From assembly GCF_001625445.1 (NCBI RefSeq), contig NZ_LWHG01000030.1, forward strand, positions 62,001 to 126,000: a DNA stretch of 64,000 nucleotides, in the 5' to 3' direction. The notes below the pieces were generated by a model that made no database searches, was not told the origin of the DNA, and worked only from the letters and a program-made list of their open reading frames with translations. Origin of the DNA: Haladaptatus sp. R4. GTDB taxonomy: Archaea; Halobacteriota; Halobacteria; Halobacteriales; Haladaptataceae. Shown piece by piece: positions 24,704 to 33,400 of the stretch; positions within the stretch are counted from its first letter, which is position 1; every line of letters begins with the position of its first letter. A program made the position numbers and the translations under genes.

Positions 24704-26401
24704 TTAATATTCATCATCAGAAGAGCTAACAAACCCCCCTGAGCCAAATACAAACACTTGATCTGAAACCCATTCACGAAATGTGATCTCGGCATCCGGA
24801 ATCACTGGAACTTGGATACCTGTTAGCGGCATTTCAACAGGGTTAGCACCTCCCGGTTTGAGTTCAATAGGAGAGCTGGGATCTAGGCTCTCATCTTTGA
24901 TTTTAGCCACTGTTTTCTGCCCTATCTTCTCCGAGACTCGGTGTCGGCTGTGCGGGTTGAAGCCTTTCATGACGTGATCTGGTGAAATAGCGTCAAGATA
25001 TTCTAGGTAAAGTACCGTTCCGAACCACAGCTGCTTCATCGAATCCAGATTTGACTGTTCAAGTGTCTCCAGACCCTCTGACCACCCATATGCCACCGAT
25101 TCCCAATCAACAATTCGCTGTTCCGTCCGCAGTTCATATCGAATCGCTGCCGACGTTATTTCTGCCATGGAGCCGTAACAACTGTTAATCAAACGCGCTA
25201 CTGGGTGGGCATCTGATCGTTGTAAACGTAGCCATTCATGTATTGGATGATCTTCGAAGGTTGCAGGCACATTGACTGCTTTCATTAACAACTTCGGGAA
25301 AAGGAGGATTAAGAGTGAGCTGTATCGGTTGTTCCGGCTGTCCTCTTGGTCCCGCATCATGATAGATGCTGCAGCAACCCATCCCATTAGTCTTGTACCG
25401 ATAGCTGTGCTATCCCACAGCCCCTCGTCCGCGGCCTTCTTGAGCAATTTTCCAGAAGTATCCATGACTTCGGTTCTGATCCGTTCGTTTTCCGATTTAA
25501 ATTCAAGTGTATCAATTAAATTGATGTGGCCAGTAATGAGATGCTCAAATGCTCTATCTGAACTGTTCTCTATTGCGGCTTCGCCAATAGTTTTCACTGA
25601 TTCAGAGACCTGAAGACCAATTTGGGTGAGATCGTTGTACACGGCTTCCTCCACCGTACTTGGTAGCTGATCAGTACAAACTCTCTTTATTGATTGATCT
25701 ACTGGTGAACCTTCTTTGAATCTATTCATTGTTGAGCATCCGAGCAGAGTAGATACCCTTTCTGCGAGGATATCTAGGCCCAAAGAAGCGCCAGCCCGGT
25801 CCTTACTAGTAATGAATGAGTGTATGACAGAGATGAGCGTCAAGAAAGGGTCAGGATTCACGGGATCTTCAGCGGCTTCCTCAATATCTGAAAGCATTGA
25901 CTCAGGAGTCATACTGTCTTGGATATGGGTCAAAATACCCTCTGGAGTCGTCTTTTTGAGGGTCTCGCTAACGAAGCTGTAGAGAGTAAAAAACGCACCT
26001 ATCGCGAGCGAAATAGAGATCACAAGTATGAGCGTGAGGACAGAGTCAGATAACTGCCCAAATAGAAAGAGGCCAATAATATTTGAGCTAATCGAAGCTC
26101 CGAATATCCCTATAGTTTTCTGGTAAGACTGATCTGCTGCGAAATCCGCAGCCAAGCGTGGAGCATACTGAGAGGTAGACAACTGAACTCCAAGTATAAC
26201 GACTGAGAAAACAATGGCAAAAATCCCTGTTTGCGCTGTCGCTAAAGTAGTCAAAACAACCTCACCTGAGGCTCTCGGATTATAATTGAAAGTTATTACT
26301 GTGACTAAAATGATAAGCGATAAGACAGTAGTTATCATCCATCGATACTTCCAAAAGGTCGATTTTACCATTTGATTGTCGAATAAGAGATCTTTTGACA
26401 T
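24704..26401 (-). CDS. DUF2254-like membrane protein
   Basis: 565 residues. The N-terminal third has four membrane segments: WMITTVLSLIILVTVITF; QTGIFAIVFSVVILGVQLST followed by SQYAPRLAADF; IFGASISSNIIGLFLFG; LTLILVISISLAIGAFFTLY. The phrase 'FSVVILGVQLSTSQYAPRL' closely parallels DUF2254. The remaining 400 residues are a helical soluble domain with Trp/Tyr-rich repeats. Function is unknown. It lies between the IS and a wHTH gene in the accessory region. Confidence 0.65.
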   Translation of the reverse strand: MSKDLLFDNQMVKSTFWKYRWMITTVLSLIILVTVITFNYNPRASGEVVLTTLATAQTGIFAIVFSVVILGVQLSTSQYAPRLAADFAADQSYQKTIGIFGASISSNIIGLFLFGQLSDSVLTLILVISISLAIGAFFTLYSFVSETLKKTTPEGILTHIQDSMTPESMLSDIEEAAEDPVNPDPFLTLISVIHSFITSKDRAGASLGLDILAERVSTLLGCSTMNRFKEGSPVDQSIKRVCTDQLPSTVEEAVYNDLTQIGLQVSESVKTIGEAAIENSSDRAFEHLITGHINLIDTLEFKSENERIRTEVMDTSGKLLKKAADEGLWDSTAIGTRLMGWVAAASIMMRDQEDSRNNRYSSLLILLFPKLLMKAVNVPATFEDHPIHEWLRLQRSDAHPVARLINSCYGSMAEITSAAIRYELRTEQRIVDWESVAYGWSEGLETLEQSNLDSMKQLWFGTVLYLEYLDAISPDHVMKGFNPHSRHRVSEKIGQKTVAKIKDESLDPSSPIELKPGGANPVEMPLTGIQVPVIPDAEITFREWVSDQVFVFGSGGFVSSSDDEY

Positions 26402-26523
26402 TAAACCATCTGATAGACCTACGACAAATATCAGTTATAATAGACAAAGTCCAGAGTGCAGTAATTAATTATAGTTGTATCCCGCATTATTTTCATTAAT
26501 CCGTTTGTTTTCTTGACTATCCC

Positions 26524-26796
26524 TTAATCGCGAGGATCGCTAACGAATGCGAACTCACGTGTAGGTTCGTGAATAAGCCTGATGTGATTACTCGCTTTGA
26601 GAACTTCCAAACGCTGGTAAACGCTATTTCTACTAAAGCCAGTTTCGTCGACAAGCCGTCCCTTTGTGGCAATACCCCATGGTTCGTCACCATTTTTTCC
26701 TTCCTTTAGACAGTCAAGAATAGCGCGATCAGTCTTGGTAAGATCATCAGCATCCATGGCTTCGGAATCAAGTTGTTGTGCTAACGCCATAGGCAT
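26524..26796 (-). CDS. Winged-helix regulator (PhiH1-repressor-like)
   Basis: 90 residues: TKTDRAILDCLKEGKNGDEP, then ATKGRLVDETGFSRNSVYQR, LEVLKASNHIRLIHEPTREF. A clear wHTH with a recognition helix around SRNSVYQRL. The order 'D-x-x-IL-x-x-L...G-x-AT' is that of haloarchaeal phage PhiH1-type repressors. The TGTGCA palindrome at 26848-26862 lies about 52 nt upstream of its ATG and is the likely operator. It is divergent from the operon that begins at 26967 and may control it. Confidence 0.75.
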   Translation of the reverse strand: MPMALAQQLDSEAMDADDLTKTDRAILDCLKEGKNGDEPWGIATKGRLVDETGFSRNSVYQRLEVLKASNHIRLIHEPTREFAFVSDPRD

Positions 26797-26847
26797 ACTG
26801 ACATTGCTTGGGCACTTAGAATTGTGTGTTAGATTATTTACTATAGA

Positions 26848-26862
26848 TGTGCAATATGCACA
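26848..26862. promoter_or_regulatory. Palindromic operator TGTGCA-ATA-TGCACA
   Basis: Six-base arms are perfectly inverted around ATA. It lies between the divergent wHTH gene (start 26796) and the unknown operon (from 26967). Confidence 0.55.
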
Positions 26863-26966
26863 AATTTAAGTGCTTATAGTACGTAGATACAATTACGAAG
26901 CGCGGATTGCCATCACAGAAAGGCCGGTGTTGGATCCACCGACCGCGCTTCAGGACCAACTGAAGC

Positions 26967-27038
26967 ATGACTAGCAATACCCTTTCCGTAGAAAAACGCA
27001 TCGACTACCAACCACCCTGTATCGGAGGACTGGACTAA
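26967..27038 (+). CDS. 23-residue leader-like ORF
   Basis: MTSNTLSVEKRIDYQPPCIG then GLD and TAA. Its stop overlaps the next ATG by one base (TAATG). It could be a translated leader or a coupling ORF. Confidence 0.35.
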   Translation: MTSNTLSVEKRIDYQPPCIGGLD

Positions 27039-27532
27039 TGGCGTCCTTCGACGAGAAACCCAACGGCGGGCTGCTCTCCCTCGAGGCCCAATTCGGCGAG
27101 AAAGTCTTCCACCCCGTCAAACGTCTCGAACCCACACCAGACACCGCCGCCCAGGACCCCGACCAACCCACGTCCACTACCGACGAGCCAATCACCCGCG
27201 CGTACCTCGTCGAACTCCGCGTGGGCTTTCAAACCCGAACTAAGACCACAGACCAAGCGCCCTACCTGTACTGCATCTACGCCACGGCCGACTGCCAACG
27301 GTTCTTCGAACGCCGTTGCCCGATCGACTACGGCAAAGAGGGCTTCCAGATTCCCGACGATACCGAGACCTATCGCTCGGTCGCCACCACCAAAACGGGC
27401 AATCCAAACCTCCCCTCAACACCACCGGGTGAAACCCACACTGAAACCCGCAGGCACTACCAGGAAATCCTCGCTCGGTGCTATGGCATCGACGCCACCA
27501 CTCATACCACCACAACCGAGGTGCACGCGTAG
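27038..27532 (+). CDS. Hypothetical protein, first main gene of the unknown operon
   Basis: 164 residues. The core has beta-like RAYLVELRVGFQTRT, APYLYCIYATADCQRFFERR and CPIDYGKEGFQIPDDTE; the ends are Pro/Thr/Asp-rich. Three cysteines cluster at 95-105. No family is named. It starts at the stop of the 23-residue ORF, and the next gene begins at the base after its TAG (TAGATG). The GC-rich, Thr/His/Pro-biased coding is shared by the whole operon. Confidence 0.65.
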   Translation: MASFDEKPNGGLLSLEAQFGEKVFHPVKRLEPTPDTAAQDPDQPTSTTDEPITRAYLVELRVGFQTRTKTTDQAPYLYCIYATADCQRFFERRCPIDYGKEGFQIPDDTETYRSVATTKTGNPNLPSTPPGETHTETRRHYQEILARCYGIDATTHTTTTEVHA

Positions 27533-27913
27533 ATGCACCCCACCGAACGCCCTCGTCGAAGAGCGCTAGCTGTCGACACCCGAATTCACGACGATCTGTC
27601 TGTGAGTCAGGACGATTCTCTCTCAGAATCGGTCAGTGTGTGCGTAAACTATTTCTCTCTAGTCGAAAACCTGCAACCAAGGCAGAAGAGCCTGAAACGC
27701 CAGCGGGCGTGTCCTTATCGACCCAAACGCAGCGATAACGTATCGTACTCCACGAGCACCAGCCACCGGCAACGCCACACCTGGTTCCCACCCATGAAAC
27801 TCACACCACGGAACCCCAGCAAGCGACGATGCCTCCAGCCCGATCACAACCTCAACAAACACACGACCCTCCACACAACTGACGAGCATCCCGACAACTG
27901 GAGGCGTGCATAA
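27533..27913 (+). CDS. Hypothetical basic protein, unknown operon
   Basis: 126 residues, strongly basic and Ser/Arg/His-rich (CVNYFSLVENLQPRQKSLKR, MKLTPRNPSKRRCLQPDHNL). The start directly follows the upstream stop and the end overlaps the next start by one base (TAATG), so it fits the operon's coupling pattern. The composition is unusual for a haloarchaeal protein, so a frame error or an untranslated spacer cannot be excluded. Confidence 0.4.
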   Translation: MHPTERPRRRALAVDTRIHDDLSVSQDDSLSESVSVCVNYFSLVENLQPRQKSLKRQRACPYRPKRSDNVSYSTSTSHRQRHTWFPPMKLTPRNPSKRRCLQPDHNLNKHTTLHTTDEHPDNWRRA

Positions 27914-28345
27914 TGGCCCACGATTGTGAGCCACCGCGCACTCCCACCAACGACCACACCGAGTGGTCACCAGACAACGAAATCACCGAAGCCGACATCA
28001 AGGAAACGTTCGAGCAGTGCCCCGATTGTGGCACGTACGTTGTGCAGTGCAATGGCGCACACTCCTGCAAACCAGCCAAACAGTTCCACAGCGTAAACCG
28101 GGAGGAACTCGCACACCGCATCGAGACCAACCCCTTCCCTGACGATGATCCGGTCCTCGTCCGCGAACACAAACGGTACAACACCTACGCTTACCACGAA
28201 CCGGACAGCGACGGGACACCGCTTTGTTCGCTCGGTGCCGATCAGTCGTTTCTCACGCGTCCTCGCGAGCACCGCCCACGAGCAATTCCTTGCACCCTGC
28301 CAGCGCTGTCAACGCATTCGCGAAAAACAGGAGGCCGACCAATGA
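27913..28345 (+). pseudogene. Zinc-ribbon-like hypothetical, frameshifted near 28250
   Basis: Frame 1: EITEADIKETFEQCPDCGTY, VVQCNGAHSCKPAKQFHSVN, EELAHRIETNPFPDDDPVLV, KRYNTYAYHEPDSDGTPLCS. Near QSFLTR the frame shifts to RVLASTAHEQFLAPCQRCQR then IREKQEADQ and a TGA at 28343-28345. That stop overlaps the next ATG (ATGA). Removing one base near 28250 gives 143 residues with Cys pairs at both ends (CPDC, CQRC), suggesting zinc binding. The coupled ends support the reconstruction. Confidence 0.55.
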
Positions 28346-28673
28346 CCGACCAGGAGACGGTCCTCGGTCTAGAGTGTACAGACCCGATCCAGATTCACAC
28401 CCAGCAACGCACGCTCACGGGTGCGTCTATCAGTGTGAACATTCGGAACCCACACTTTCCTGTCGCGGTCCCGAACCCGGTGAGCACGTCCTGTACGTCG
28501 CTACGCCGTCGAACGATCTGTACCGCCTGCAGTACCGGTACTACGACGCAATCGAACACACCGAGGCCGATCTCGATCGGTACGGACGCACCCCCTCTGG
28601 GAAGTACGCCTGGTTGCGCACCTACGCGACGATCGAGGATATCGTCGATCCGACGGGAGGTGAGCAAGCGTGA
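28343..28673 (+). pseudogene. Hypothetical protein, frameshifted near 28410
   Basis: Start MTDQETVLGLECTDPIQIHT. The later frame gives HAHGCVYQCEHSEPTLSCRG, PEPGEHVLYVATPSNDLYRL, YDAIEHTEADLDRYGRTPSG, YAWLRTYATIEDIVDPTGGE and a TGA at 28671. The span is one base over 110 codons, consistent with one insertion near 28410. The product would be 109 residues with a beta-rich core. The stop overlaps the GTG of the next gene. Confidence 0.5.
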
Positions 28674-29149
28674 GCGAGACACCACGACCGTTGAATCCCC
28701 GCGATGCCGACGCCCTCGTTCAACGTCTCTCGCCCGGTAATTGCGTTCGTATCACTACCACGGAGCTGCCACGGACGATTTGCACGGTCAAAGCAACGAA
28801 CGCACCGACACACTGCGGCCCGCATCTCGTTCTGACGGCTCCACCAATCACGACGACGGCACAGGACGCACCGCATCAAGCCACCTACCACTGCACTAGT
28901 CAGTCCAACACTGATTCTGCTATGACTGTTCTCGAGCACCTCCACACGCCTAGTGACACGACATCTCGTTGTATCGGCACGCTCACTACCATCGCCCACC
29001 TCCCACGTCTCACAACGTCACCGAAGGATACTACAGTTCCAGTGAAGAAGCACGCCACTGAAGACACCACGATTTCCACTGAATTCACAGAGGAAACCGC
29101 TCTGAAACCACCAAGAACAGGTGACTCGATGTCAGGAGGTGACCGATAG
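28670..29149 (+). CDS. Hypothetical protein, unknown operon
   Basis: 159 residues from a GTG overlapping the previous stop (GTGA). The first 70 residues look folded (ADALVQRLSPGNCVRITTTE, GPHLVLTAPPITTTAQD). The rest is Thr/Ser/Pro-rich and probably disordered. It ends at the base before the next ATG. No family is recognised. Confidence 0.55.
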   Translation: MSETPRPLNPRDADALVQRLSPGNCVRITTTELPRTICTVKATNAPTHCGPHLVLTAPPITTTAQDAPHQATYHCTSQSNTDSAMTVLEHLHTPSDTTSRCIGTLTTIAHLPRLTTSPKDTTVPVKKHATEDTTISTEFTEETALKPPRTGDSMSGGDR

Positions 29150-30271
29150 ATGGCAGCATCCACTAGATCAGTTACGCAGCCACAACAGTCCCAGCCCACC
29201 CCGAAAAACGTCCAGAAGACTTTCTGGACGGACAGTCCTGGTGACGCCCAACTCGATGCACTTGCTGCACTTAACGACTGTTCGCAGGGTGCACTCCTTC
29301 GCTCACTCATCGACGAAGCGTTCACCGAGCAGTTCGACGACCTCGACCCAGCACATATCGAACAGGGTCAAGTGTCTATCGACGATCTTCAGGCACTCGC
29401 GAACGACGAGATCACCGTCGATGAACTGGATTTGACGTCGATCACTACCGAATCTGTCACTGAGTATGAATCGAATTCGTACTATCTCACTGTAACCCCC
29501 GACGATCTTGCTGAACCCGGTCCAGAACTCGACTGGGAGACGTTGCGTGATGCCGTCGAGAATCCGGAGGATGGTGGGTATTGGAACGATGACCTCGAAA
29601 TCCACGACAGTCGGATTGGCGAGGAGACGCTGAAAGCCAGTCATCGGCCTGCTGCTCGCATTCTCACCGGGATTGCTCGCTCGCAAGCCTACGAGAACGG
29701 CATCGTCCCCCACACCATGATCGAGGATCTCGTGAATGAGTACTGTCTCCTTCTCACGAATCGGCTCACTGACGGCGAGCAAGAACGCGGGAAAGTGCAT
29801 ATCCGCGAGACGTACACGAATCTCATTGCTAACCAGCTCTACGAGAATCCGTCGCCGGTTGCGAATTCCTACTACGCGACGAAAACCGACCTCCACGCAC
29901 GACTACAAGGTGAAATCGAGACGGCCCAAAGCGTGGCTGAGCGCGCCGAGACAGTCACCGATTTCGACGTGTGGCAACAAACACAGGATAGTGCCATCGA
30001 CGATGAGACCCTTCGCCAGCAGTGGTACTCGGAATTCACGACGTGGCTCGAAGACATTGCTCGGACGAAACATGCTGGGCGCACCTACGTTACAGAACTT
30101 CAGCGTAGCACCTACGAATACGAAGATAGCGAGGCGAAAACAGCATTCGATGCACTCCACTCGAACATCCACGACGCGGTTGCAGCCTTCGAGGACGTCC
30201 CTGCAAAAGACAGGGTCGCAGTTATCGAATCCATTGATGAGACACTACTGACCGTCATCCACAACGACTAA
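29150..30271 (+). CDS. Hypothetical protein with RHH-like N-terminus, last gene of the unknown operon
   Basis: 373 residues, acidic. Residues about 20-60 (NVQKTFWTDSPGDAQLDALA, ALNDCSQGALLRSLIDEAFT) have the strand-helix-helix pattern of ribbon-helix-helix DNA-binding domains. The middle is acidic (VDELDLTSITTESVTEYESN). The C-terminal 220 residues are long helices (HRPAARILTGIARSQAYENG, RETYTNLIANQLYENPSPVA, YVTELQRSTYEYEDSEAKTA). A DNA-binding adaptor for plasmid maintenance or replication is possible, but nothing proves it. The best-formed gene of the operon, free of frameshifts. Confidence 0.7.
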   Translation: MAASTRSVTQPQQSQPTPKNVQKTFWTDSPGDAQLDALAALNDCSQGALLRSLIDEAFTEQFDDLDPAHIEQGQVSIDDLQALANDEITVDELDLTSITTESVTEYESNSYYLTVTPDDLAEPGPELDWETLRDAVENPEDGGYWNDDLEIHDSRIGEETLKASHRPAARILTGIARSQAYENGIVPHTMIEDLVNEYCLLLTNRLTDGEQERGKVHIRETYTNLIANQLYENPSPVANSYYATKTDLHARLQGEIETAQSVAERAETVTDFDVWQQTQDSAIDDETLRQQWYSEFTTWLEDIARTKHAGRTYVTELQRSTYEYEDSEAKTAFDALHSNIHDAVAAFEDVPAKDRVAVIESIDETLLTVIHND

Positions 30272-30465
30272 CGACCAGCACGCCGCAATTGTCCGCCCCG
30301 ACATGTAGCGACAGCGCTAGCGATTAAGGTCAGTATCGAATCGCTAGAGGGCTGTTAGTCCCCTAGAAATCAAAGAGAGCCACAGTCCACGTGCTAGAAG
30401 AGCGAACGACTTCTCGACATCGTTTAAACACCGGATTTATACCAATAGTGAAGCTTCTTAGAAGT

Positions 30466-30570
30466 ATGAGCTTAGAAGAGACGGTCGATTTTCTCGCCCA
30501 AGAGCTCGATCTCGAACGGAGTGAGCATGTCCGTGAGGTTGGCCAATCGGTCGCCGAGCTCCGCGATTAA
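30466..30570 (+). CDS. 34-residue helical protein
   Basis: MSLEETVDFLAQELDLERSE then HVREVGQSVAELRD: an acidic helical mini-protein. A TTTATACC box at 30436-30443 sits about 26 nt upstream, fitting a leaderless transcript. Unknown function. Confidence 0.4.
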   Translation: MSLEETVDFLAQELDLERSEHVREVGQSVAELRD

Positions 30571-30750
30571 CCAAAAATGAACCGCAGCGGAAGTTGCCGA
30601 GCTGAACTTGAGAGAAAAATTCTCGGAAAGCGGATGGGGGTAGTAGACGACTGGTGCCATCAGTATGCTCTGTCTCTACTTACCTAGAGTTAAATTGCCT
30701 TGTTCTCCAGGTGAGAACCTGATGAGAGAAACGACAGCAAGTATGCAGGA

Positions 30751-30760
30751 GTGATATCAC
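30751..30760. repeat. Palindrome GTGATATCAC, copy 1
   Basis: Exact 10-bp palindrome, preceded by GA. Copies 2 and 3 are at 30841-30850 and 31217-31226. Confidence 0.7.
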
Positions 30761-30840
30761 TCGGCGAATCGTCGTCCAGACACAAAATCCAATTCTGCAG
30801 AGATGGTCGCCCTCAATACCGCGAAACCCACTCGAATAGA

Positions 30841-30850
30841 GTGATATCAC
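30841..30850. repeat. Palindrome GTGATATCAC, copy 2
   Basis: Exactly 90 bp (about 8.5 helical turns) after copy 1 and also preceded by GA. Confidence 0.7.
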
Positions 30851-31216
30851 AATTGTCGGTCTTCTTCTCGTTCACACGATTCCACCGAATCCGTCTGGTC
30901 GTTGAAACCGAAGACGGCTCTCACGGGAGACAGCAACACGAAGACACACGAACCACGACAGAACACAACCCACCGACAAACCACCCCTTCCGGACGACCC
31001 GTGGTCGTCCGTCACCACAAAAGCTCTCCTACGGACTTCTAGAGTACATAGCCATTTAAAATTTTCTCTAACTGTAAGCGATTCAATTTTGCTTAATTGC
31101 TAGTTTCCGTGGGTTTTCTCCCGTGTTGTTGAAGAAGCACCGTCTCGATGCGTCAGTTTCGACCCTGCGCCGAGACGAATGTGCGAGAAACGCGAACGAC
31201 GAGAAAACGACTGATT

Positions 31217-31226
31217 GTGATATCAC
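31217..31226. repeat. Palindrome GTGATATCAC, copy 3
   Basis: 376 bp after copy 2 and about 180 bp before the RHH gene at 31406. Confidence 0.7.
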
Positions 31227-31344
31227 CCGTTTGTGTCGTCTTTTGCTCTCTCACAGTTTGGTTTGCGGTTGGAGAGAAGTCGGTGAATTGGTTCTGACGA
31301 CGGTGTCAGAACGGTGTTTGAAGGGAACGTGGATGCGTCTTTGT

Positions 31345-31359
31345 GTGCAAACTTTGCAC
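31345..31359. promoter_or_regulatory. Palindromic operator GTGCAAA-C-TTTGCAC
   Basis: Perfect 7-bp arms around one base, 47 nt before the ATG of the RHH gene. This is the typical position for autoregulation by a VapB-like protein. Confidence 0.55.
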
Positions 31360-31405
31360 GCCAGACGACATCGTTATTTGTCTATGTACAGAAAATGCAC
31401 AAACA

Positions 31406-32079: not shown

Positions 32080-32254
32080 GATACGATGAGATGGAACGTA
32101 TACACGCATATATGTGGCTGCACAGAGCGACGGAGCTGCAGTTCGGAAATACACGATCTGGGTCGATACTGCACACAAACCTTCCCCGGTGAGTCATTCG
32201 TATACCGAGTATAAAAACACCTATACCAATGGGGCACAGAGGGGTACTACAGAG

Positions 32255-33400
32255 ATGCCTACGAGAGAGCTGCCGGACAGTGCCCCGGGAACGTATATCT
32301 CGTCTCATCCAAATCCGTATTATTCACCAGAATCACTACCGGTAGAGTCAAAGCTCGAGATTTCCGATCAAACACGTGACCTTGTCGCCGATGCTGCATA
32401 TCAGATCGGTCGTGTCGACGGAGTTAGTTCAACAGTCGACTTCTCTGCCGTTCTCTATACATCTCTTATTCGTATCGAAGCCGTCGAATCCGCACGCATT
32501 GAAGGTGCCGATGTCGAGTATCAAGAGCTCGAAGCGTATCACACACAACACCCTACAGGAGAGACAGACCCAACGATTGAGAAAGATCTTAAAGAGGCAC
32601 TCAACTACGAAAATGCGCTCAACTATGGGCTTGACAGAATCGAAAGCGGGGACTCGATAACGCTCTCGCTTATTAAAGAACTTCACTCGATGCTCCTTGA
32701 AGACGTTCGGAACGACGGTGACGTTGTCGGCGACTTCCGCGATCACATGGTTCATCTAGCGAGTCCACAATCTGGACAACGTCCGTTCGTCCCGCCGACC
32801 CCAGAGAGTCTCAATGGACTCATGCAGTCGCTCGAATCGTATATTCAGATGGGTGGGCAGTATCATCCGCTTATCGACGCTAGCATTATCCACTACTTCT
32901 TCGAGACAGTCCACCCGTTTTCGGATGGGAATGGTCGGCTTGGTCGACTCCTCATCATCCTTTATTTGGCGAGTGAGGGGTATCTCGAAAGTCCGTACAT
33001 CTATCCCAGTGCATACTTCAATCGCAACAAGGTCGAGTATGTCGAGCGGATGCGTGCAGTAAGCGAGGAGGCCACCTGGGACGAGTGGATCATGTTCTTC
33101 ATCGAAGGGCTTCGGAGTCAAGCTGAGACATCATACAATCGGACCCAACAGCTCCGGGAACTCCAAGCACGGTACGAGAAGGAATATCCGGGCAGTACGA
33201 ACACAGACATATTCGCTCGTCAATTACTCCAGTATCCATATTTCACAGCCCCCGACCTCGTAGAGTATCTCGGCGTCTCGCGCCGAACTGCCTACAAGAT
33301 CGTCGACGATCTTGAAGCGGATGGCCTCATCGAGGAAGTGACTGGAAAGCAACGCGGGAAAGAGTACAAGGCAGTCGATGTCTTCGACATCCTTGAGTAG
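32255..33400 (+). CDS. Fic-family protein (class II) with C-terminal winged helix
   Basis: 381 residues from MPTRELPDSAPGTYISSHPN. Residues 79-84, SARIEG, match the Fic inhibitory motif [S/T]xxxE[G/N] in the N-terminal position of class II proteins. The active-site loop HPFSDGNGRLGR (220-231) is complete, with catalytic His220. The C-terminus (LLQYPYFTAPDLVEYLGVSR, RTAYKIVDDLEADGLIEEV) is a winged helix. Known: Fic enzymes transfer AMP to target proteins, and the inhibitory Glu blocks ATP until relieved. The fused wHTH suggests it also binds DNA, perhaps its own promoter. An upstream in-frame start at 32114 adds 47 residues without family support. Confidence 0.92.
   Translation: MPTRELPDSAPGTYISSHPNPYYSPESLPVESKLEISDQTRDLVADAAYQIGRVDGVSSTVDFSAVLYTSLIRIEAVESARIEGADVEYQELEAYHTQHPTGETDPTIEKDLKEALNYENALNYGLDRIESGDSITLSLIKELHSMLLEDVRNDGDVVGDFRDHMVHLASPQSGQRPFVPPTPESLNGLMQSLESYIQMGGQYHPLIDASIIHYFFETVHPFSDGNGRLGRLLIILYLASEGYLESPYIYPSAYFNRNKVEYVERMRAVSEEATWDEWIMFFIEGLRSQAETSYNRTQQLRELQARYEKEYPGSTNTDIFARQLLQYPYFTAPDLVEYLGVSRRTAYKIVDDLEADGLIEEVTGKQRGKEYKAVDVFDILE

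Follow-up and report, generated by a model that had tools for sequence, protein, structure and literature searches.

What does the tight cluster of overlapping genes at positions 26,967 to 30,271 of a 64,000-nucleotide stretch of Haladaptatus sp. R4 DNA (contig NZ_LWHG01000030.1, positions 62,001 to 126,000; the whole stretch is called the window below) encode, and what controls it? A preliminary description of the locus saw six proteins made as one unit, a candidate undescribed system read either as a module for plasmid maintenance, replication or transfer or as a distinct system. Our analysis points, with a probability of about 0.8, to a Haladaptatus plasmid operon under an immunity cassette of phiH type, which combines a repressor with leader-RNA control. 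The control region, rather than the operon, is the discovery: the module described earlier is real, but its gene calls and intactness had to be corrected, its chromosomal placement found no support, and its most conserved feature, a structured leader RNA, had been overlooked.

A structured leader RNA upstream of the operon

The most conserved DNA of the module is the stretch directly upstream of gene A, which folds into a three-way junction of helices P1, P2 and P3 with a competing hairpin, P4 (Table 1). A covariance model built from 22 copies recovered the A-bearing copies, loci in the sister genus and, from the chromosome of H. pallidirubidus, a divergent relative. Among 36 sequences, 96% of the cells of the 18 leader pairs were paired, and 35 double-change cells were counted versus 8.0 in shuffles, none of 500 reaching 35; as a control, sliding the pair partners abolished the covariation signal. 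On the plus strand 34 G-U cells stand against 13 A-C cells, an excess that favours an RNA read in the operon direction. MAFFT misaligns P2 and P3 in two alignments (A1 and A3); the counts are those of the model-fitted alignment A4, which leans towards structure, a bias tempered by the independence of P4 and by the wobble asymmetry.

In 36/36 sequences the 3' arm of P1 (GCUUC) is able to pair with a second GAAGC-like arm, which in nearly all of them ends 0-4 nucleotides before the start codon; the first inner pair of this P4 hairpin varies among T-A, G-C, A-T and C-G. As this arm is shared, P1 and P4 are predicted to be mutually exclusive, each with covariation outside the shared segment. For the window leader P1 and P4 states differ little in energy: P4 is part of the minimum free energy fold, and most of P1 is part of the centroid. 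Searching positions 26400-31400 against Rfam with cmscan gave one chance match (E 0.41, far under the cut-off), and our literature searches found no description of the leader, an earlier account in the original phiH transcription papers remaining conceivable.

Repressor and candidate operator

The divergent repressor gene and the perfect palindrome that the preliminary description placed ahead of the operon were both found, the former as a small winged helix-turn-helix (wHTH) gene, R. Its naming as PhiH1-like was right in kind: the profile of the wHTH-type R group that includes the window protein has RepR of phiH1 (E 3e-7) and ORF48 of PhiCh1 (E 5e-6) as its two best matches among 607 frames from 20-kb regions of these viruses, the match of window R alone to RepR being marginal (E 0.004). 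On H. caseinilyticus plasmid 5, R shares 87% identity with the window protein, and the palindrome there nearly matches the one in the window. Operator regions are alike between copies with similar R (at least 55%) and not otherwise (Mann-Whitney p 0.0013); the palindrome, lying beside a TATA-like box, is a candidate operator of R.

Spread of the cassette

R, the operator/TATA region and the 5' leader RNA form a portable cassette, which is found on haloarchaeal plasmids and viruses before many different genes. A wider model, R2, matched 83/391 Halobacteria genomes at E 1e-6, in 39/86 genera, with all matches in Halobacteria; a draw from the whole phylum gave 9 genomes with leader matches, all of the same order. 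At 25 of 26 leader loci examined a divergent R relative lies about 35-125 nucleotides from the leader, a tally for which the loci of minus-strand matches were turned by hand (the script tally of 10 covers plus-strand matches only). Three viral contigs carry the leader; L114 and L117, matches of the viral DNA pattern, were set aside as chance, being without it.

The genes behind the leader are diverse and include SWIM-type zinc-finger proteins, Csm3-like RAMP proteins (PADLOC E 1e-6), a coiled-coil protein that we call X and, named by eye from their sequences, LAGLIDADG-like and ParB-like proteins. A conserved SWIM-type zinc-finger protein was the commonest first gene in the loci read (L119, L129, L105 and others). 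In other haloarchaea, Csm3/Cas7-like RAMP genes at L107:4084-4980 (+), and also in L112, L123 and L135, come after this cassette and are trailed by a second conserved gene, possibly an unusual effector operon of CRISPR type. The intergenic regions at the R gene of other X plasmids gave strong junction-like folds, with 0/96 shuffles as stable, in a scan that is supportive only, as it chose the best fold per region and in phiH1 took a fold neighbouring the leader of the T4 transcript.

Conservation of the module on plasmids

The six-gene cluster is an accessory, genus-level plasmid operon of Haladaptatus. Genes A-C-D-E were found again, in constant order, in all 9 Haladaptatus genomes searched, with B in some copies, and the order recurs at 20 or more independent loci, which is more than chance; the proposed check for such recurrence on haloarchaeal plasmids thus came out in favour of a conserved unit, here on plasmids of Haladaptatus. 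Gene A was present in 9/9 Haladaptatus genomes searched, on 13 complete plasmids from four species of the genus (81-90% identity) and usually once per plasmid, which bears out the suspected plasmid link; it is restricted to 1/86 genera of the class, and gene D was found in 9/28 genomes of the family, every one Haladaptatus. As for the window itself, its contig (C30; 239,662 bp) carries its own ParA (C30:146486, outside the operon) and two orc1/cdc6 genes at 146-150 kb and is therefore, as far as a draft assembly indicates, probably a plasmid, so that the earlier view of a module carried into the chromosome is not supported.

Copies of the module differ at both ends. The divergent R falls into at least three unrelated types (several wHTH groups, a 'TDSERELL' type matching virus protein family phrog_26393, and a type like ribbon-helix-helix (RHH) proteins and VapB), and the terminal gene, either F or X, into about seven; the C-terminal domain of X is itself one of several. 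Many haloarchaeal genera have X relatives, which were found on 52 plasmids, with a divergent helix-turn-helix (HTH) gene at 4/5 non-Haladaptatus X loci inspected; F homologues are found on plasmids of Haladaptatus, Natrinema and Halomontanus, and in 7/391 genomes of the class.

Some replicons have reduced modules, R-D-X or D-E-X. Those of L078, L086, L088, L090 and L091 are R-D-X with another R type (MRPRVSWMT..) and another leader, bearing a GGGACAAAAGUGUCCC hairpin. On the H. pallidirubidus chromosome (L081:6020-6571) a divergent A relative, 43% identical, has its own leader and is followed by a SWIM-type gene in place of C-D-E, a possible intermediate form.

Since viral contigs as well as phiH1 and PhiCh1 share the cassette, the locus could also be what a provirus has, or has left behind, as its early region, instead of a plasmid system, and the match of R type g1 to phrog_26393 (E 2e-22) would suit such an origin. 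Yet X had no match among 50,697 phage records, the module sits on circular plasmids among unrelated flanking genes, and A does not leave one genus; we regard a provirus as quite improbable.

Gene content of the window copy

The chained starts and stops are as first described, all six junctions being present: TAATG (27036-27040), TAGATG (27530-27535), TAATG (27911-27915), ATGA (28342-28345), GTGA (28669-28672) and TAGATG (29147-29152). Six intact proteins are nevertheless not encoded, the first open reading frame (ORF) being a 23-codon peptide and C and D being frameshifted. The ORF that starts at TAGATG 27533 is overlong; the conserved gene B begins only at 27794, and therefore A and B are not overlapping genes. 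By tblastn with intact relatives as queries, C and D have one frame change each in the window copy, which other copies lack. The second module of this genome (G000:C33:173387-175123, L025) has C and D each in one piece, its coiled-coil X gene being split by a frameshift.

The window operon is thus probably only partly functional, C and D being broken, unless the frameshifts are assembly errors. That this copy is a decaying, functionless relic, which would be compatible with a repressor- and leader-controlled plasmid operon for the family, is suggested by these frameshifts and by the split X gene of the second copy, whereas genes A, E and F, like the leader and its peptide, are conserved and undamaged and sequencing error is possible in a draft of 34 contigs; a relic seems to us conceivable, if rather doubtful.

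Table 1. Features of the control region and operon, in window positions.
Feature	Position	Strand	Remarks
R, divergent winged-helix repressor, 90 amino acids	26524-26796	-	PHROG transcription-regulator matches; phiH1 RepR / PhiCh1 ORF48 homologue by profile
Candidate palindromic operator TGTGCAATATGCACA	26848-26862		Perfect palindrome beside TATA box; no strand
TATA-like box ATTTAAG	26864-26870	+	About 30 nucleotides upstream of P1; position kept in 19 copies; inferred from sequence
Leader RNA, P1-P2-P3 junction and competing hairpin P4	26897-26966	+	Covariation, 36 sequences; model match E 1e-17
Leader helix P1	26897-26905/26943-26951	+	Three-way junction
Leader helix P2	26909-26911/26922-26924	+	Three-way junction
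Leader helix P3	26925-26929/26937-26941	+	Three-way junction
Competing hairpin P4	26947-26953/26960-26966	+	Present in 36/36; inner pair covaries; ends at leader-peptide start codon
Leader peptide MTSNTLSVEKRIDYQPPCIGGLD, 23 codons	26967-27038	+	Joined to A by TAATG; length constant in 23/23 A-bearing copies
Gene A, 164 amino acids	27038-27532	+	Best conserved among the module proteins, of no known family; mostly 81-91% identity, 9/9 Haladaptatus genomes
Gene B, 39 amino acids	27794-27913	+	In part of the copies; 71% identity to H. halobius plasmid gene
Gene C, zinc-ribbon-like	27913-28345	+	Frameshifted here; tblastn frame ends near 28293
Gene D, 110 amino acids in relatives	28342-28673	+	Frameshifted here; two tblastn pieces in different frames, change near 28419
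Gene E, 159 amino acids	28670-29149	+	No known family; 54-67% identity, L001 protein versus other copies
Gene F, 373 amino acids	29150-30271	+	Variable terminal gene of F type; RHH-like N-terminus, possible winged-helix middle domain

Downstream, the region described as gene-free and repeat-bearing is indeed gene-poor (30.3-31.4 kb), its main repeat being an imperfect inverted repeat of 33 nucleotides (76%), which we found no reason to link with the operon. The arms (30841-30873 and 31194-31226) have GTGATATCAC ends, with a third GTGATATCAC near 30752, and may be a mobile-element remnant. At 32114-33400 (+) lies a gene whose protein combines a Fic domain with a winged helix at the C-terminus (Pfam Fic, Fic_N, TrmB).

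Possible roles of the operon proteins

Matches to well-known plasmid functions, one protein after another, of which the preliminary description had warned, did not appear in Pfam, PADLOC, PHROGs or the PDB. None of A-F had a Pfam match above the cut-off, and no known initiator, Rep or ATPase family was found in the operon; PADLOC gave no match for A, C, D, E or F at E 0.1, PHROGs no assignment for A-F (C being marginal at 0.009), and a PDB sequence search nothing for A and one chance-level match for F. The structure model of A was useless (predicted local distance difference test, pLDDT, 45). In the F model (pLDDT 71) the N-terminus is compatible with RHH, helices 29-41 and 46-62 fitting that fold but the strand region having low pLDDT and Pfam giving no match; a winged-helix-like middle and a helical C-terminus follow. 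Foldseek found no match to the model at E 0.001. VIA matches of F to helical bundles of STAT (Z 8, residues 244-373) and to winged-helix parts of MukE and CST (Z 6, about 147-247) were not accepted as relatives, these values being at the level of common arrangements.

The operon might be a replication or partition module, with F or X serving as initiator or as centromere-binding protein and R as a copy-number or incompatibility repressor. RepH is a product of the T4 operon of phiH1, which has the same control region; on plasmids of Natrinema and Halomontanus, orc1/cdc6 is found close to F relatives; and there is about one module copy per plasmid. R also behaves in this direction: all pairs above 60% identity (9/9) join different genomes, where about one within-genome pair would be expected, and no pair within one genome exceeds 55%. 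Such a pattern hints at immunity or incompatibility groups without proving them, and incompatibility groups by R are not claimed, the permutation test being weak (p 0.03 to 0.32). On the other hand, the module plasmids of complete genomes have ParA and Orc1/Cdc6 matches elsewhere on the same plasmid, and the operon is therefore not the plasmid's only replication or partition locus, for which reason a replication origin is rejected as its sole function, and replication or transfer, as first proposed, is likewise not supported as the only one. Moreover, one plasmid has two module copies, several replicons have none or only a remnant, and the operon contains no ATPase or Rep family by Pfam, so we hold a replication or partition module to be unlikely.

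Several copies adjoin restriction, methyltransferase, TcmP or TIR genes and some payloads under the same leader are Csm3-like, as would befit a module of defence or toxin-antitoxin type whose specificity genes vary; but the PADLOC searches with A, C, D, E and F were negative, no toxin family was found and the adjoining defence genes may be mere plasmid cargo, making such a module highly improbable. The likeliest role of the payload is plasmid establishment or maintenance, an assignment that we make tentatively.

Proposed mechanism and its implications

For a plasmid operon under repressor and leader control, we propose that R would keep the operon silent once the plasmid is established, and that loss of R, or entry into an R-free cell, would switch it on. 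During transcription P1 would form first and leave the AUG free; were an antisense RNA, slow translation, a protein or an RNase to open P1, the 3' arm thus freed could refold into P4 and shut off the start codon. The products A-E may then act in plasmid establishment or maintenance with a terminal DNA-binding protein, F or X, that differs between plasmids, a step we put forward with low certainty.

Several points weigh against this account. The assignment of the P1 and P4 states to ON and OFF is a proposal, and unproved, and leader transcription in Haladaptatus is predicted from sequence alone. R2 scores the leaders of phiH1 (9.8 bits) and PhiCh1 (14.9 bits) weakly, and their relation to the window leader therefore rests on the mapped start, on architecture and on position. 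In permutations, the avoidance of similar R in one and the same genome reaches p 0.03 at the loosest cut-off and 0.29-0.32 at stricter ones, and the database searches left the payload A-F without a functional assignment.

Beyond Haladaptatus, we see an even chance that the leader represents an undescribed haloarchaeal RNA family whose P1-versus-P4 switch, after repressor loss, gates early operons throughout the class, in plasmids as well as in viruses. If so, archaeal mobile elements would be controlled at both the DNA and the RNA level, with payloads freely exchanged; for archaea, little is known of leaders that are structured and may switch. Present in so many haloarchaeal genera and nearly always beside a phiH-like repressor, the leader would mark early operons of mobile elements that can be found by search, and would link large haloarchaeal plasmids to a classic virus model, for which the mapping of early leaders dates back decades. 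The switch can be tested with simple reporter constructs.

Comparison with known systems

The closest known counterpart is the repR/T4 region (L region) of phiH1, in which the genes stand back to back and Rep, which binds at the promoter of T4, represses that transcript (PMC4284463). There, as in the window, a divergent winged-helix repressor faces an early operon with a three-way-junction leader. For T4, the early lytic transcript, the annotated start is 34556, the first base of P1; folding of its leader gives the same junction, in which P3 (GUGCUGG..CAC) is similar. Further downstream lies another copy of the arm (GAAGGCA) that could compete, and the T4 operon likewise has small genes followed by a DNA-handling protein. 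It differs in the sequence and length of P1, in being viral rather than plasmid-borne, and in its payload RepH, absent from the window operon; no similarity between the payloads of the two operons was found.

In the lysogenic region of PhiCh1, where Rep (ORF48) regulates ORF49 (PMC4284463), a repressor homologue occupies the same position and the leader at the equivalent site folds to the same junction, with a CCGGUGCUGG..CACCGACCGCG core; the downstream genes differ, and so does the leader by its model score of 14.9 bits. The T1 leader of phiH1, processed upon binding of an antisense RNA (PMC4284463; PMC6210493), is likewise a structured leader ahead of an early haloviral operon, but it is longer and of another fold, and the antisense RNA, T(ant), known for T1 is only hypothetical for the window leader. 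The T1 leaders of phiH1 and PhiCh1 (L146:8583-8732 and L145:8020-8169) are long folds whose closing helix, GAGCAGG/CCUGCUC and GAGCAAGCG/CGCUUGCUC, covaries. Finally, the X proteins of plasmids such as pHTUR04 (coiled-coil and wHTH-like) occupy the corresponding position of the module; upstream of them is a divergent HTH gene, and a structured region lies between the two. These plasmids differ in that the window has the F type of terminal gene and that gene A was not found outside Haladaptatus.

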